20,965 nucleotides of DNA from a virus, in IMG/VR virus record IMGVR_UViG_3300031227_004331, positions 1 to 20,965 of that record. The stretch is one strand, 5' to 3'. A program made the translations under genes and the position numbers. The notes beneath the pieces are model-generated. The model was not told where the DNA came from and made no database searches. It saw only the letters and a program-made list of their open reading frames with translations. How positions within the stretch are numbered: position 1 is the first letter of the stretch; every line of letters starts with the position of its first letter. Shown here in pieces: positions 13,938 to 20,965 of this stretch.

Positions 13938-14411
13938 CTATAAAGTCTTTCTCTTTTCATAAGAAGCTTCTAATACAAGAGCATTCAAGATCAATAAACT
14001 AACATACTTAGTAATCGTGACATTTCGCTTGTGGGCATTCTTTCTAACGCCATCAATCATATGTGGCGGAAGATCTATCCCTAGACGTTCTCTATTTGGC
14101 CTAGCTGATTTACTTGCCTCACAATTGATTTTAGGGCCCTTCTTAATAGATATATATAAGTGATCTAGGTTCGTACATAATTTATTGTTACAGGTGTTAC
14201 GTACATAATGAAATTCAGGTATCTTACCGTTAAATGCCATCCATGATGCACGATTCGCCCCTAGGGAAACTCCAAGAAATGAGATTCTAGGGAAACCACT
14301 TGTGCACACAGCACCCTGCCAGCCATAACAATCATCTTTTTTACTGCCACGAACTTGAAACTTTTTAAGCCTAGCAATAAGATTAACTTTTTTCGATTCA
14401 GTCATATTCAT
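13938..14411 (-). CDS. HNH-like endonuclease fused to ribbon-helix-helix domain
   Basis: This 157-residue protein is the only gene on the minus strand. Residues about 26-90 match the HNH homing-endonuclease pattern: a GWQG opening (30-33), the R-A-S-W stretch (54-57), GKIPEF (62-67) and a zinc/HNH core C74-NNKLC79-TNLDHL (80-85). In active relatives this reads HR...H-x-C-D-N...N-x-x-H; here the corresponding residues are Asn53-Arg54 and Asn72-Thr-Cys74, so the usual catalytic His is replaced by Asn. His84 and Asn81 remain. Residues 107-147 (RLGIDLP, then two helices) look like a ribbon-helix-helix DNA-binding domain. A homing or mobile element role is likely by family, but activity is doubtful. 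The start has a weak GGA upstream. Confidence 0.75.
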   Translation of the reverse strand: MNMTESKKVNLIARLKKFQVRGSKKDDCYGWQGAVCTSGFPRISFLGVSLGANRASWMAFNGKIPEFHYVRNTCNNKLCTNLDHLYISIKKGPKINCEASKSARPNRERLGIDLPPHMIDGVRKNAHKRNVTITKYVSLLILNALVLEASYEKRKTL

Positions 14412-14605: not shown

Positions 14606-17020
14606 ATGGCGGTAAATAAGACAAGGAATTTAAAGTATAACGTATTTAATCCTGATCAATTAGGTGGTATTTACCAAGCCCCTATTGTTTCAGAAACACG
14701 TTCACCTGCAACATCAGATTTTGCAGAAATTGGTACTGTATGGATCAATAAGGCTACTGATGATGCTTTTATTATTACTAGCATTGCAGCTGGATCGGCA
14801 ACATGGACTGACCTTGCAGGGATTCCTGCAACAGGCACAGATGGTCAATTATGGATTGGCGCAACAGGAGCACCTGCTTTATGGGCAAATTTAGCTTCTG
14901 CTGGTGGATCTGTAACAATTACAAATACTGCTAATGGTATTAACTTAGAAGCAGCTGGTGTAGCTGCATTAACAGCATTAGACGGTGACGCAGGAACAGC
15001 GGTTCCTTTGGCTGGTGTTATTACAATTGCTGGTGGTACAAATATAACTACTGCTGGTGGTGTAAATACACTTACTATTAATCTTGATGGAAGTCCTAAT
15101 GTAGCGGGCTCATTAACAGCTGGCACAACGATTTCTTCTGGCACTGGAATCACTTCAGTTCTTGGAAATATCGTTGCAAGCGCAGGAAATATTTCTACAA
15201 CTGTTGGCTCAATTGACGCAGCATCAAGTCTTAGTTCAGGAACCTCAATAACTGCAGGAAATACCATCACCGCTACCGCAGGCGACATTACTGCCGCAGC
15301 AGGAGCAATTGAAGCAGCAACTACGATGCTTTGTGGAACTGGACTAACCGTTACCACTGGCGGTGCTCTTGTTTCAGCAGGAGATATTGACGTAACGCTG
15401 GGTGGAGTCACAGTTGCTGCAGGCGATTTAGCTGTAACTTTAGGCTCAATTGACGCAGGCGCGATGATAACCGGAGCGGTTGGATTGACAGCAACCACAG
15501 GCGGCGTATTAATATCGGCTGGTGATTTAGATATTACACTTGGTGATCTTAATCTTGATGCCGGTGATTTTAATATAACAGTTGGTGGAATTGACGTAGC
15601 GGCTCAAGTCGTTGCAGGAACTGGACTGGTTGCTACCACTGGTGGAGCATTAATCTCGGCTGGTGATGTAGATATTACACTTGGTAATCTTAATGTTGAT
15701 GCCGGTAATTTAGATGTAACTATAGGAACAATCGACGCAGGCGCGATGATAACCGGAGCGGTTGGATTGACAGCAACCACAGGTGGTGTATTAGTATCAT
15801 CAGGCGATGTAGATATTACACTTGGAAATCTTACAGTTGACGCTGGTAATATTGAAGCAACTTTAGGAACAATCGACGCGGGTGCTATGATAACCGGAGC
15901 GGTTGGACTAACAGCAACCACAGGCGGTGTATTAGTATCATCAGGCGATGTAGATGTAACTCTTGGAAACCTAACTGTAGATGCAGGTAATATCGAAGCA
16001 ACTGCAGGATCTATCGAAGCTGGTACAACTTTAGTTTCTGGCACTGGACTGACAGTAACCACAGGTGGAGCATTAGTTTCAGCTGGAGATATTGATGTAA
16101 CTTTAGGAAATGTAAACGTTGATGCTGGTAATCTAGACGTAAGCTTGGGAACCATCGATGCAGGCGCACTAATCACTGGAGCGGTTGGATTTACAGCGAC
16201 CACAGGAAATATCACGACGAGCACTGGAAATTTTGTTTCAACTCTTGGATCTTGTACTGTAGCAACTACCCTCGAAGCAGGAACTGGAATAGAAACCGTG
16301 CTTGGCGACATCGTAAGTACGGCCGGAAAAGTCACAGCAAATACTACGATTGAAGCTGGAACTGGACTGATTACAGCCACGGGTGACGTCGTAAGTACCG
16401 CCGGAAAAGTTACCGCGGCAACTACAATGGAAGCTGTCGGAAATATTATCACTAGCACTGGAGATTTTACAAGTACTTTGGGTGGAATTACAGTTGCGAC
16501 ACTAGTTTCAGGTGGAACTGGAGTTACAGCTGTGACAGGTGACCTCACAAGTACTGCAGGAGCATGTTCAGCAGCAACTACGATTACTTCGGGAACAGGC
16601 ATCAGCAGCACTATTGGAGATATTACGGCCGACGCAGGAGACCTAGTAGCGACCCTCGGTGGAGTTACCTGTGCGACTATTGTTCAAGCAGGAACTGGCC
16701 TCGCAACGAGCACGGGTGATATAGTCTGTACGGCCGGAAAAGTCACTGCGGCGACTACCATAGAAGCAGGAACTGGACTGACCACAGCGGCAGGAAATGT
16801 AACAAGTGCGGCGGGTGATGTTGAAGCAGAAACAGCAGCCAAGGGATTCATTTGTGGATCTGGAAGTAAAGTTATTGATGGATCAGGAACACCACACGGT
16901 TCAGTAACAGCACCAAAAGGTTCTTTATATTTAAGAGTTGATGGTTCTGGAGCAGCAGATCGTGCATACATCAACACTGATGGTTCAACAACTTGGACAA
17001 ACTTAGTAACAGCAGCGTAA
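14606..17020 (+). CDS. Long repeat-based tail fibre / adhesin (804 aa)
   Basis: This is probably a trimeric beta-solenoid fibre. Residues 1-75 resemble phage tail-fibre N-termini (LGGIYQAPIV, EIGTVWINKATDDAFIITS), and 126-161 (DAGTAVPLAGVITIAGGTNI onward) recur in the second fibre. From about residue 170 to 735 nearly everything is built from short repeats: seven-residue rungs with pattern G-[DNGT]-[ILV]-x-x-x-x interrupted by six-residue rungs. Six units of exactly 47 residues occupy 252-533, followed by units of 33, 26, 26, 26, 26, 33 and 26. The C-terminus (about 745-804: GSVTAPKGSLYLRVDGSG, then RAYINTDGSTTWT) is a common fibre tip module. No enzyme motif is visible. Receptor-binding or fibre-shaft function is inferred. 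Confidence 0.85.
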   Translation: MAVNKTRNLKYNVFNPDQLGGIYQAPIVSETRSPATSDFAEIGTVWINKATDDAFIITSIAAGSATWTDLAGIPATGTDGQLWIGATGAPALWANLASAGGSVTITNTANGINLEAAGVAALTALDGDAGTAVPLAGVITIAGGTNITTAGGVNTLTINLDGSPNVAGSLTAGTTISSGTGITSVLGNIVASAGNISTTVGSIDAASSLSSGTSITAGNTITATAGDITAAAGAIEAATTMLCGTGLTVTTGGALVSAGDIDVTLGGVTVAAGDLAVTLGSIDAGAMITGAVGLTATTGGVLISAGDLDITLGDLNLDAGDFNITVGGIDVAAQVVAGTGLVATTGGALISAGDVDITLGNLNVDAGNLDVTIGTIDAGAMITGAVGLTATTGGVLVSSGDVDITLGNLTVDAGNIEATLGTIDAGAMITGAVGLTATTGGVLVSSGDVDVTLGNLTVDAGNIEATAGSIEAGTTLVSGTGLTVTTGGALVSAGDIDVTLGNVNVDAGNLDVSLGTIDAGALITGAVGFTATTGNITTSTGNFVSTLGSCTVATTLEAGTGIETVLGDIVSTAGKVTANTTIEAGTGLITATGDVVSTAGKVTAATTMEAVGNIITSTGDFTSTLGGITVATLVSGGTGVTAVTGDLTSTAGACSAATTITSGTGISSTIGDITADAGDLVATLGGVTCATIVQAGTGLATSTGDIVCTAGKVTAATTIEAGTGLTTAAGNVTSAAGDVEAETAAKGFICGSGSKVIDGSGTPHGSVTAPKGSLYLRVDGSGAADRAYINTDGSTTWTNLVTAA
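15359..16204 (+). repeat. Six 141-bp tandem units inside the fibre gene
   Basis: Copies of the same coding unit start at 15359, 15500, 15641, 15782, 15923 and 16064, all exactly 141 bases (47 codons) apart. Each begins GG[AV]L[VI]S and contains four heptads followed by a 19-residue closing block. The 50 bases at 15452-15501 are identical to 15734-15783, two units away, whereas other copies differ at many synonymous positions, so the copies have mixed ages. Confidence 0.92.
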
Positions 17021-17076: not shown

Positions 17077-17406
17077 ATGCGTACAAATAATAGAATCATA
17101 GCTATTGAGTTAACTTCGTTGGATTCAACTTCTTTAACGGTCAATTATCAAGCAATTAATCCAGATGGATTGGAAGAAGCATGTTATTTACTAAGAATTA
17201 TTAATGATTCTGGTATGGATGTTACATTAAGTGGTGATGGTGTGACTGATAATGATTTTGTAATGGCAGGTGATACTGCAATGGTTACTGCTCCTTATTC
17301 GAGTGCTGATATGCCTAATTTTAAAGAAGGATCAATAATTTACGTTAAGAGTACTGGAGCAGGACAATCTGGTGCTGTATATCTTGCAGGTTATGCACGT
17401 ACATAG
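17077..17406 (+). CDS. Small beta-rich virion protein, copy 1 (109 aa)
   Basis: ATG 17077 has AAGGTG upstream. The 109-residue product shares a core with the next gene: ACYLLRIINDSG, then DVTLSGDGVTDNDFV and, near the C-terminus, IIYVKSTGAGQSGAVYLAG (about residues 35-106). Related small proteins are common next to tail-fibre genes in podovirus-like phages in my recollection; the fold is probably a beta sandwich. No signal or membrane segment. The copies are likely homologous, not identical, which implies gene duplication. A virion decoration, fibre-tip or fibre-chaperone role is possible but not established. Confidence 0.65.
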   Translation: MRTNNRIIAIELTSLDSTSLTVNYQAINPDGLEEACYLLRIINDSGMDVTLSGDGVTDNDFVMAGDTAMVTAPYSSADMPNFKEGSIIYVKSTGAGQSGAVYLAGYART

Positions 17407-17414
17407 GAGATTTA

Positions 17415-17744
17415 ATGATTTCCAGTAATGCAATAAAAGTAATTGAGCTTACGACATTCGATGCAGGTGATCTTATTGCTACGTTTTTACCTATCAATAC
17501 TACTGGGTTGCCTGATGCATGTTATAAGATTCGTATTATAAACAGGTCTAAGGGCGATGTTATTGTTAGTTATGACGGTGTGACTGATAATGATTACGTT
17601 CAACATGATACTGTTTTAAATGTGACAGTTCCAACACAGAAAAAAGACGCACTAGCTTTTAGAAAAAAAATGAAAGTGTATTTAAGGGGAGCTATTGGAA
17701 TTGGTTATATCCATCTTATTGGATATTATCAACCACGAGGGTAG
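17415..17744 (+). CDS. Small beta-rich virion protein, copy 2 (109 aa)
   Basis: This starts eight bases after the previous gene, whose stop overlaps the AGGAG ribosome site. It is the same length (109 residues) and aligns end to end: ACYKIRIINRS, DVIVSYDGVTDNDYV, then IYLR-like strands and a terminal YIHLIGYYQPRG. The closest shared segment is DGVTDND, identical in both. Copy 1 is acidic in its loops whereas copy 2 has a basic patch (QKKDALAFRKKMK, about 75-88), so the surface has diverged. Tandem duplication followed by divergence is the simplest reading. Function as for copy 1. Confidence 0.65.
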   Translation: MISSNAIKVIELTTFDAGDLIATFLPINTTGLPDACYKIRIINRSKGDVIVSYDGVTDNDYVQHDTVLNVTVPTQKKDALAFRKKMKVYLRGAIGIGYIHLIGYYQPRG

Positions 17745-18511: not shown

Positions 18512-20965
18512 ATGAGTCAAGCGGGTCAATTTTACCAAAAGACATTAGTATCAACTTTAACCGGTGATACGGGCGGAGCGGTAGGGCCCGTAGCTGGCAA
18601 TATCGACTTAGTAGGTGGAGCTGGTATAGCAGTTGATGGATTTCCAGGAATTAGCACATTAACTATTACTGCTAGTGGAATGGCATCAAGTTTTGTAACT
18701 GACGCTGGGACGGCAACTCCAGTTGCTGGTGCTATTAATGTACTTGGTGGATCTAATATACATTCAAGTGGTGCTGGAAATACAATAACACTTGATCTAG
18801 ATGATGATGTGACAATCTCAGGACAATTAGAAGCAAATGAAATCGAATCTATTACATACATTAACGCGCTTACTTCCATTAGCGCACTCACTGGAGATAT
18901 TACTGCACCTCACGGAGATATCTCTGCTGGTGGCCAAATGGTTTCTACAGGGGATATTACGTCTGTAAGTGGTGATATTACAGCCCTAGCTGGAAATCTT
19001 ACCATTGTGGGAACTGCATCAGTATCTGGAAACATTACTTCTTCCGCAGGAAATGTAATATCACAAAATGATGTCATCTCTAATACTGGAGATATTTATA
19101 CATCATTGGGGTCAATCATTTCAGCAGCTACGATTACATCTGCAACTACCATAACCAGTACTGCAGGGGATATCGTTGCAGCTGGTGGAAATATGATTGC
19201 GTCAGGCACTATTACTGGTATGTCTGGACTACGAGCTACGGCTGGTGGTGTAATTGTATCAGCGGGAGATGTTACCGTTACCCTAGGGGACATAGAAACT
19301 TTAGCTGGATCTATTGATTCGGCATCTACTATTTCAGCAGTTGGAAATATTACATCTTCTGGTGGAGACATTCAAACTACTGTAGGTGATTTAATATCTG
19401 GTAATGACATTACAGCTACAAATGATATTAGCACTACAGCTGGTACGATTTCTTCATTTGGAACTATTACAAGTACTAACGGAAACATCGAAACCACAAC
19501 TGGATCCATTGATTCCGGATCCACAATTTCTGCAGTTGGAGACATCACAAGCTCCACTGGAGATATCGTATCGACGAATGGTGATCTCCGAGCTCCCAAC
19601 GGAACGCTATTCGTCAATACGTTCTCAGCAACCGGCGACATTATTTCTAGTGGTGGAGACTTAATTGCCACTGTTGGAGATGTTAAGGCTGGAAATAAAT
19701 TATATTCTGGAGCTGGTCTCGAAGTTACGACAGGAAATATTGATGTATTGACAGGTCGAATCAATGTTAATGTTGGTGGAATAGAAGTTAATCAAAACAT
19801 TGTATCTTTAAATGGTAGTATATTTGCTACAAATGGCGATATAACTGCTGGATATTCAATAGTTGCTGGAAGTGATATCACTTCTGTAATTGGCGATATA
19901 ACTGCTAGCGCAGGAGATATTACTGCAAAATATGATGTTGAATCTATTAGTGGAAATATCAATGCATTAGCTGGAAATATTACAACATCTGTTGGATTTA
20001 TACGGTCAGCTGGAGCTCTTATAGCAGATGTTAATCTGCAAGCAACTGGAACTGTTCAGTTTACTGATATTACAGATGGCTATCTTAAAGCAGATGCGAC
20101 TGGTTTTGTATCTTCAGTTGATTTCGATCAAGACAATATGCTTTATGTTGGTAAACATGGTGATGATGCTAATAGTGGATTATGTCCATCAGAAGCTAAG
20201 TTAACCATTCAAGCAGCAGTTACTGCTGCCGCAGCCGGTGATACAATTATTGTTTATCCTGGAACATACGAAGAAACAATAACTCATGCTGCAAGCAATG
20301 TAACTATCTTAGGGCAAGGTAAACCAAGTAATTGTATTATTACTCAGGCAGATGCTAATGTTATTGACTTCGCAACATTTTCTGGAATCCAATATAAATT
20401 CTTTGGAATTAGTTGTACGGCAGCAACAACAGCTATATGGACAGTTGAGGGTTCTACCGGTTCATGCTCATTTAAAGAATGTCAATTATCTATGACTTCT
20501 GCTGCTGCTATAGCTGCTGTAGCGCAACCTGGCGTTGGTAGGGTAACTGGAGCTGGAACGTTATCTGTTATTCTCGGAAAAGCATATTACTATCATACCG
20601 GCAATGGTGGTGCAACTGCCAATAAAGGAGCATTTGCAACTGCAGATGGTGGCCTTGTTTCATTAAGCCTTATTGAAGATTTAACAGTTTCTAATAGTGG
20701 TACAGCTTTGGTAAGTGGTATAGGTATCGATACAGCATCTACTGGTAATATTAATATTCATGATTGTATTATTGATGTTACTGATCCAAATGCTACAATC
20801 GTGGTTGGTTTAGCATATCTTGGTGGTACGGGAACAGGTAGTGAGTTTTATAGAAATACAATCCATGTACAAGCAACCAACAATACTGCGTACGGTTTCT
20901 TTAGTGCTGATACAGCTTCAACAAGTAGGTTCTTTTTTAATCATGTTCATGTAGAAGACGCAGCT
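18512..20965 (+). CDS. Second repeat fibre with pectin-lyase-like spike domain (partial)
   Basis: The frame starts at ATG 18512 (TAGGAG five bases upstream), runs 818 codons and is still open at the right end. Residues 61-97 (FVTDAGTATPVAGAINVLGG and onward) match the module at 126-161 of the first fibre. Residues about 128-510 are again heptad/hexad rungs (GDITSVS, GDITALA, GNLTIVG and so on), more variable than in the first fibre. From about 545 the protein changes: YVGKHGDDANSG, then TIQAAVTAAAAGDTIIVYPG and TYEETIT look like the opening of a right-handed parallel beta-helix of the pectate-lyase / DUF1565 type. This is the plan of a tailspike that binds or cuts surface glycans. Catalytic residues cannot be identified in the portion seen. 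Confidence 0.82.
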   Translation, partial: MSQAGQFYQKTLVSTLTGDTGGAVGPVAGNIDLVGGAGIAVDGFPGISTLTITASGMASSFVTDAGTATPVAGAINVLGGSNIHSSGAGNTITLDLDDDVTISGQLEANEIESITYINALTSISALTGDITAPHGDISAGGQMVSTGDITSVSGDITALAGNLTIVGTASVSGNITSSAGNVISQNDVISNTGDIYTSLGSIISAATITSATTITSTAGDIVAAGGNMIASGTITGMSGLRATAGGVIVSAGDVTVTLGDIETLAGSIDSASTISAVGNITSSGGDIQTTVGDLISGNDITATNDISTTAGTISSFGTITSTNGNIETTTGSIDSGSTISAVGDITSSTGDIVSTNGDLRAPNGTLFVNTFSATGDIISSGGDLIATVGDVKAGNKLYSGAGLEVTTGNIDVLTGRINVNVGGIEVNQNIVSLNGSIFATNGDITAGYSIVAGSDITSVIGDITASAGDITAKYDVESISGNINALAGNITTSVGFIRSAGALIADVNLQATGTVQFTDITDGYLKADATGFVSSVDFDQDNMLYVGKHGDDANSGLCPSEAKLTIQAAVTAAAAGDTIIVYPGTYEETITHAASNVTILGQGKPSNCIITQADANVIDFATFSGIQYKFFGISCTAATTAIWTVEGSTGSCSFKECQLSMTSAAAIAAVAQPGVGRVTGAGTLSVILGKAYYYHTGNGGATANKGAFATADGGLVSLSLIEDLTVSNSGTALVSGIGIDTASTGNINIHDCIIDVTDPNATIVVGLAYLGGTGTGSEFYRNTIHVQATNNTAYGFFSADTASTSRFFFNHVHVEDAA

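Follow-up and report, generated by a model that had tools for sequence, protein, structure and literature searches.

The fold class closest to the fibre shafts described here is the triple beta-helix, an intertwined trimer. In its typical form, adjacent strands of a given side always come from different subunits (PMC8326128). In the MyRF stalk, each layer contributes six residues to the core, and those of the same strand are spaced one residue apart (PMC8326128). In the needle of T4 gp5, each strand touches the preceding and the succeeding strands of the other chains, and Asn and Asp residues form a ladder at repeat position 2 (PMC4576200). The helix of T4 gp34 is 2 nm wide, and its aliphatic interior is combined with turns made of Gly, Ser and Asn (PMC5537660).

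Here, two putative fibre proteins (p1 and p2) were analysed, which are encoded by the viral record IMGVR_UViG_3300031227_004331. This complete IMG/VR record of 20,965 bases is the window. The shafts of p1 and p2 resemble the narrow triple beta-helix of T4 gp34 and gp12 in their short strands, their aliphatic core, their small corner residues (Gly, Ser, Asn) and their location in a phage fibre shaft (PMC5537660). However, the segments of gp34 comprise 17–44 residues, are punctuated by domains and show no clear sequence motifs according to their authors, whereas the shafts of p1 and p2 extend over 412–576 residues and display an explicit 6/7 motif. With the helix of the gp5 spike (VxGxxxxx) they have in common a regular repeat, a Gly corner, Asn or Asp at repeat position 2 and a modular length (PMC4576200). 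In contrast, gp5 is built from octads, has 23 strands, is wider and forms a needle instead of a long shaft. The stalks of endosialidase and MyRF likewise consist of hexapeptide strands with two core residues per strand (PMC8326128). They differ by their small number of layers and by an attached, cleaved chaperone domain; no such domain was recognised in the p1 and p2 fibres.

Results

Two putative fibre genes in a tailed-phage record

The window contains structural genes of a tailed phage. The major head protein matches PHROG 1357 (E 6e-36), a Gp53-like fibre C-terminus was found by a Pfam search, and an SU10-adaptor-like protein scores just under the Pfam cut-off. Eight records carrying relatives of p1 or p2 were searched, and seven of them also contain a relative of the major head protein (best match per record, 38–73% identity). 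Most of the comparison set therefore belongs to the same broad phage group. The two candidate fibre genes and their parts are listed in Table 1. The C-terminal domain of p2 has, as judged by eye only, the appearance of a parallel beta-helix, and it gave no match in Pfam.

Two further observations concern the neighbourhood of p1. The two adjoining 109-aa proteins encoded between p1 and p2 (17077–17744) are paralogues with 42% identity. On the minus strand, an ORF resembling an HNH_3 endonuclease (13938–14411; E 2e-4, under the Pfam cut-off) lies antisense between the gene of a 1045-aa protein and p1.

Table 1. Putative fibre genes of the window and their modules.
Feature	Coordinates	Strand	Basis or remark
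Fibre gene 1 (p1), 804 aa	14606..17020	+	ORF; homologues in L004 and L005 over most of their length
p1 N-terminal anchor/collar module, residues 1–167	14606..15106	+	68–71% identical in three relatives
p1 shaft, residues 168–743	15107..16834	+	step parsing, alphabet test
p1 exception to the rule, 7+6+6+6 (GSIDAAS SLSSGT SITAGN TITATA), residues 201–225	15206..15280	+	
p1 array, six 47-residue units in series, 141-bp period	15344..16189	+	TRF and unit listing
p1 C-terminal module, residues 747–804	16844..17017	+	recurs in many fibre-like ORFs that are otherwise unrelated
Fibre gene 2 (p2), at least 818 aa, open at window end	18512..20965	+	ORF; homologues L030, L031
p2 shaft, residues 104–515, about 63 six- or seven-residue steps, looser order	18821..20056	+	parsing; missing in the L031 homologue
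p2 C-terminal domain, cut by window end	20144..20965	+	conserved in the L030 and L031 homologues

Both shafts are composed of steps of six and seven residues

A preliminary description of this DNA had placed a repeat of 7- and 6-residue elements at 15116–16851, which corresponds to residues 171–749 of the ORF 14606–17020. The units were read as n heptads followed by a closing block of 7+6+6 residues. We parsed the sequences by means of an EM procedure that allowed free steps of 4–10 residues and was only loosely seeded, with Gly at position 1 and an aliphatic residue at position 3. For p1, L004 and L005, 201 of the 217 steps comprised six or seven residues, and the score of 687 compares with values of at most 14 for 20 refitted shuffles. 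The profile was then frozen and applied with a uniform step prior to proteins outside the training set, including p2. Among the 339 resulting steps, 315 were again six or seven residues long (116 sixes, 199 sevens, 24 others).

Every pair of step lengths between 4 and 10 was compared, which makes 21 alphabets. The alphabet {6,7} ranked first throughout, with scores of 258 for p1 (runner-up 206), 215 for p2 (runner-up 113) and 713 for three relatives (runner-up 549); shuffles scored 46 or less. The key position is occupied by I, L, V, F or M in 93–97% of the steps (97% in p2), as compared to 52–59% on average in shuffles. Under {6,7}, the p1 shaft is parsed without gaps into 87 steps, of which heptads account for 53 and hexads for 33; p2 yields 63 steps and L004 yields 98. 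Among 162 hexad runs, 83 consist of exactly two hexads, while 43 are expected from a shuffled order and 1000 shuffles gave at most 65. The 6/7 step pattern is thereby confirmed in both fibres. This includes the previous assignment of the second fibre to the same alphabet with a looser order: p2 does not obey the order rule, and its hexads are single, double and triple. In p2, L036 and L038, hexads are also found singly or in threes or fours.

The residue preferences were tabulated for 241 heptads and 144 hexads. Positions one to seven of the heptad contain G, D/G/N, I/L/V, T/V, A/S/V, T/S/D and A/L/T (consensus G-[DNG]-[ILV]-x-[AVS]-[TSD]-[AL]). The corresponding preferences of the hexad are G/T, T/A/S, V/I/L, T/S/E, A/S and G/A (consensus [GT]-[TSA]-[VIL]-x-[AS]-[GA]). 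Each step has two inward positions, of which position 3 is large and aliphatic and position 5 is small. Due to this alternation and the Gly corner, what had been termed a rung corresponds to one face. Judged by this residue pattern, one step is probably a single short beta-strand and not the whole rung of a single-chain solenoid. The inward positions are one residue apart and thus match the core rule of the triple beta-helix (PMC8326128). At position 2, Asp or Asn recurs at lag 1 in 138 cases (108 expected) and at lag 3 in 56 cases (101 expected), both counts being confounded by the way in which heptads and hexads follow each other. Among the computed lags 1–4, the enrichment at lag 1 is suggestive.

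Unit lengths follow a 19+7n rule with exceptions

Every integer of 30 or above is a sum of sixes and sevens (the largest that is not is 29), and unit lengths alone therefore give no support for a 6/7 alphabet. Their use as proof was dropped in favour of the alphabet comparison and of a falsifiable form of the claim, namely that the spacing of closing blocks equals 19+7n, i.e. 5 mod 7. In 16 parsed proteins, 57 of 65 spacings between closing anchors are 5 mod 7. The observed lengths are 26 (nine cases), 33 (27), 40 (three) and 47 (18); 54 of these 57 spacings (26, 33 and 47) correspond to units of 4, 5 or 7 faces. The rule is broken by spacings of 20, 32 (three cases), 46 (two), 52 and 59. In p1, spacings of 47 occur six times, 33 and 26 three times each, and 52 and 32 once each; the spacing of 52 represents two units of 26 with a degenerate anchor. 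L036 contributes one spacing of 46, and the p2 homologue of L004/L030 has spacings of 59, 46, 32 and 32. Units of the same gene are to some extent duplicates of one another, and the binomial p (1e-39) is therefore overstated. The agreement of distinct lengths across proteins is the sturdier point.

The relatives reuse the lengths 26, 33 and 47 and add 40, which bears out the proposal that length changes by whole steps. L044 may contain a unit of 54 residues: its parse has six heptads between hexad pairs, and its anchors show no spacing of 54. The statement that 47, 33 and 26 are the only lengths has to be abandoned, because p1 contains an extra hexad within the window (Table 1) and because 40, 46 and 32 occur in relatives. 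The array of p1 was detected by TRF with 5.5 copies and 73% matches. Its 47-residue units align without gaps with units of L005, L033 and L037. By TRF, the 141-bp array was not found in p2.

The shaft is absent or replaced in relatives

The p2 homologue of L031 (6001–9069) has kept about 100 N-terminal residues and the C-terminal domain, and lacks the shaft of about 400 residues. The homologue of L030 has kept the shaft at a different length. L053 (1501–3501), a relative of p1 from the same record as L031, begins with an N-terminal module that is 71% identical to that of p1 and continues with a different type of repeat. Similarly, L034 (2741–4681) combines an approximately 70% identical N-terminal module with a different repeat at the position of the shaft. 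The C-terminal module of p1 (about 50 residues, KGSLYLR.DG...DRAYINTDG.T.W) terminates many otherwise unrelated fibre-like ORFs from IMG/VR (L008–L029); it had no match in named phage records. Absence and replacement of the shaft and the occurrence of the C-terminal module on many otherwise unrelated ORFs indicate that the shaft behaves as an exchangeable spacer that links a conserved anchor to an exchangeable tip.

The N- and C-terminal modules of p1 (14666–14809 and 16844–17017) look distantly alike, a likeness that is unproven; we do not claim that they are one duplicated domain (hhalign P 0.0015, probability 16.8). In the fibre ORFs L037 and L048, the 6/7 shaft directly follows a shaft of another kind, in which GTLGVTGTSTLG-like repeats abound that by eye also look hexad-based.

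Structure prediction and database searches

Modelling of p1 alone with AF2 and no alignment resulted in a mean pLDDT of 51.5, with the best values (70–76) within residues 350–460. This model has strands every 6–7 residues and intrachain bridges, and is solenoid-like. For the AF2 model of four p1 units, repeats of p1, L005, L044, L033 and L037 were aligned; it has a mean pLDDT of 62.5 and zero strand residues. Such a strand-free chain may be what is expected of an isolated chain of an intertwined fold, and also of a failed model. Foldseek searches with both models, which are of low confidence, yielded nothing significant.

As a positive control, the triple-helix segments of T4 gp34 and gp12 were used. 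They can be divided into steps of six and seven residues (ININAS GLMNVN GTATFG RSVTAN is one example), but under the p1 profile they score only slightly above shuffles (combined p = 0.006), which is a weak likeness. In whole-protein scans with the same profile, these segments were not singled out. The regular part of gp5 is parsed as a run of octads; an octad period was not found in the shafts, where {6,7} is far above any alphabet containing 8.

No match was found in a PDB sequence search with the shaft proteins, nor in Pfam for the shaft, for p1 and p2 or for the proteins of the relatives. In PHROGs, the shaft gave one partial match of 25 residues (phrog_4281, function unknown), and among seven proteins of relatives only L043 matched, in its downstream domains. 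A tblastn search of 50,697 named phage records with p1, p2 and the L004 relative gave no match; BLAST masks low-complexity repeats. A scan of genome contigs produced 28 pattern matches, none of which was confirmed as a relative, so that no clue to the host was obtained. The view that no named family follows this rule is thus right for sequence families. The presumed fold class, by contrast, has precedents in T4 gp12 and gp34 and in MyRF and endoNF.

Discussion

On balance, we favour the reading that the shafts are long, sequence-regular and narrow intertwined C3 triple beta-helices of the T4 gp34/gp12/gp5 type. The short regular strands, the core residues one apart and the small or turn-forming corner residues of the shafts are in line with it. 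The recurrence of Asp or Asn at lag 1, confounded as it is by step order, recalls the ladder of gp5. The beta structure, the trimer, its intertwining, the layer widths, the lengths and the fibre role are features that we infer. p1 and p2 would form fibres on the tail or the head of a tailed phage, with rod-like spacers as their middle parts. The spacer would consist of consecutive beta-strands of six or seven residues with a Gly corner between them. Three chains would run round one axis, and each strand would pair with the preceding and the following strands of the other two chains. Each step would then add one layer of three identical strands, or about 0.48 nm. A heptad layer would be wider (21 residues round) and a hexad layer narrower (18 residues round), the narrow layers being mostly paired. 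The three faces would be equivalent by symmetry, such that whole steps could be gained or lost without a break in register. This equivalence would account for the unit jumps of seven residues and for numbers of strands per unit that are not multiples of three. The shaft would set the distance from the conserved virion-proximal module to the exchangeable tip.

In its most specific form, the proposal is somewhat less certain than an even chance. It describes a motif-regular, narrow triple beta-helix of about 60–100 layers whose length is digital: one heptad or hexad per chain would make one three-strand layer, and paired hexads would form periodic narrow bands. At 0.48 nm per layer, intertwined rods would measure about 42 nm (p1) and 30 nm (p2), as compared to about 14 nm and 10 nm for single-chain coils.

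The strongest competing explanation, which we nevertheless regard as unlikely, is a single-chain, three-sided, right-handed beta-solenoid of the filamentous haemagglutinin kind. Here, the closing block of 7+6+6 = 19 residues would be one coil and the heptad runs would be extra sides; in a variant, three such chains might lie side by side. One coil of the haemagglutinin helix comprises about 19 residues, which is the size of the closing block, and the sum of three consecutive steps amounts to 18–21 residues. The strand pattern of the single-sequence AF2 model is solenoid-like, and the secretion domains of FHA and HxuA are among the non-significant Foldseek matches. However, 54 of the 57 rule-abiding spacings are not whole coils, so that 6-residue sides would repeatedly come to lie on 7-residue sides; 26, 33 and 47 are not multiples of whole coils of 19–21 residues. 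A single-step quantum in these spacings is better explained by an intertwined trimer. The depletion of Asp and Asn at lag 3, confounded as it is by step order, points in the same direction, as do the missing TPS domain, the lack of a family match in Pfam and the absence of intrachain strands from the AF2 model with alignment. Of the beta-solenoid with two rung types that was suggested originally, the two step lengths are retained, whereas the whole-rung solenoid is not, given units of 4, 5 or 7 faces.

Still less probable is another trimeric fibre fold, such as a left-handed roll of the YadA kind, each coil of which has two faces of seven residues, a left-handed hexapeptide helix or a triple beta-spiral. 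By eye, the relatives L009 and L040 contain YadA-like segments, and the hexads are reminiscent of hexapeptide helices. Yet units of five or seven faces are not whole two-sided coils. A helix of the [LIV]-G-x4 type would consist of hexads only, in coils of 18 residues, whereas heptads outnumber hexads here (241 versus 144). The repeat of the triple beta-spiral comprises about 15 residues, and no family match was found.

That slippage or recombination expands tandem copies of 21 bp and 141 bp, which would make the quantum a DNA effect and the 7-residue step a record of copying rather than a structural constraint, is highly improbable: the array and its adjacent units are plainly copies, but p2 obeys {6,7} with its aliphatic key positions and has no 141-bp array, diverged relatives retain the steps, and the hexads, which are not a product of heptad slippage, keep the phase. 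Slippage can be a route of length change, with structure selecting the lengths that survive.

The 6/7 shaft is thus probably a triple beta-helix as known from the fibres of phage T4, in a form of great length and unusual regularity. If this is true, the narrow form of the fold, which was described as being without clear sequence motifs, gains an explicit sequence rule, and the helix exceeds the gp5 needle several-fold in length. The sequences of phage fibre shafts are in general difficult to interpret; an alphabet of two words would predict strand boundaries, allowed lengths and the length of the rod. It would also make the fold recognisable in metagenomic phages, in a way that is testable by rod measurement. 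The single-strand quantum is a sequence signature by which intertwined trimers might be told apart from single-chain solenoids. Finally, the repeat-dependent, changeable length of gp5 has led to its proposal as a scaffold for engineering (PMC4576200), and a natural shaft that varies over dozens of steps would show the reach of such length engineering.
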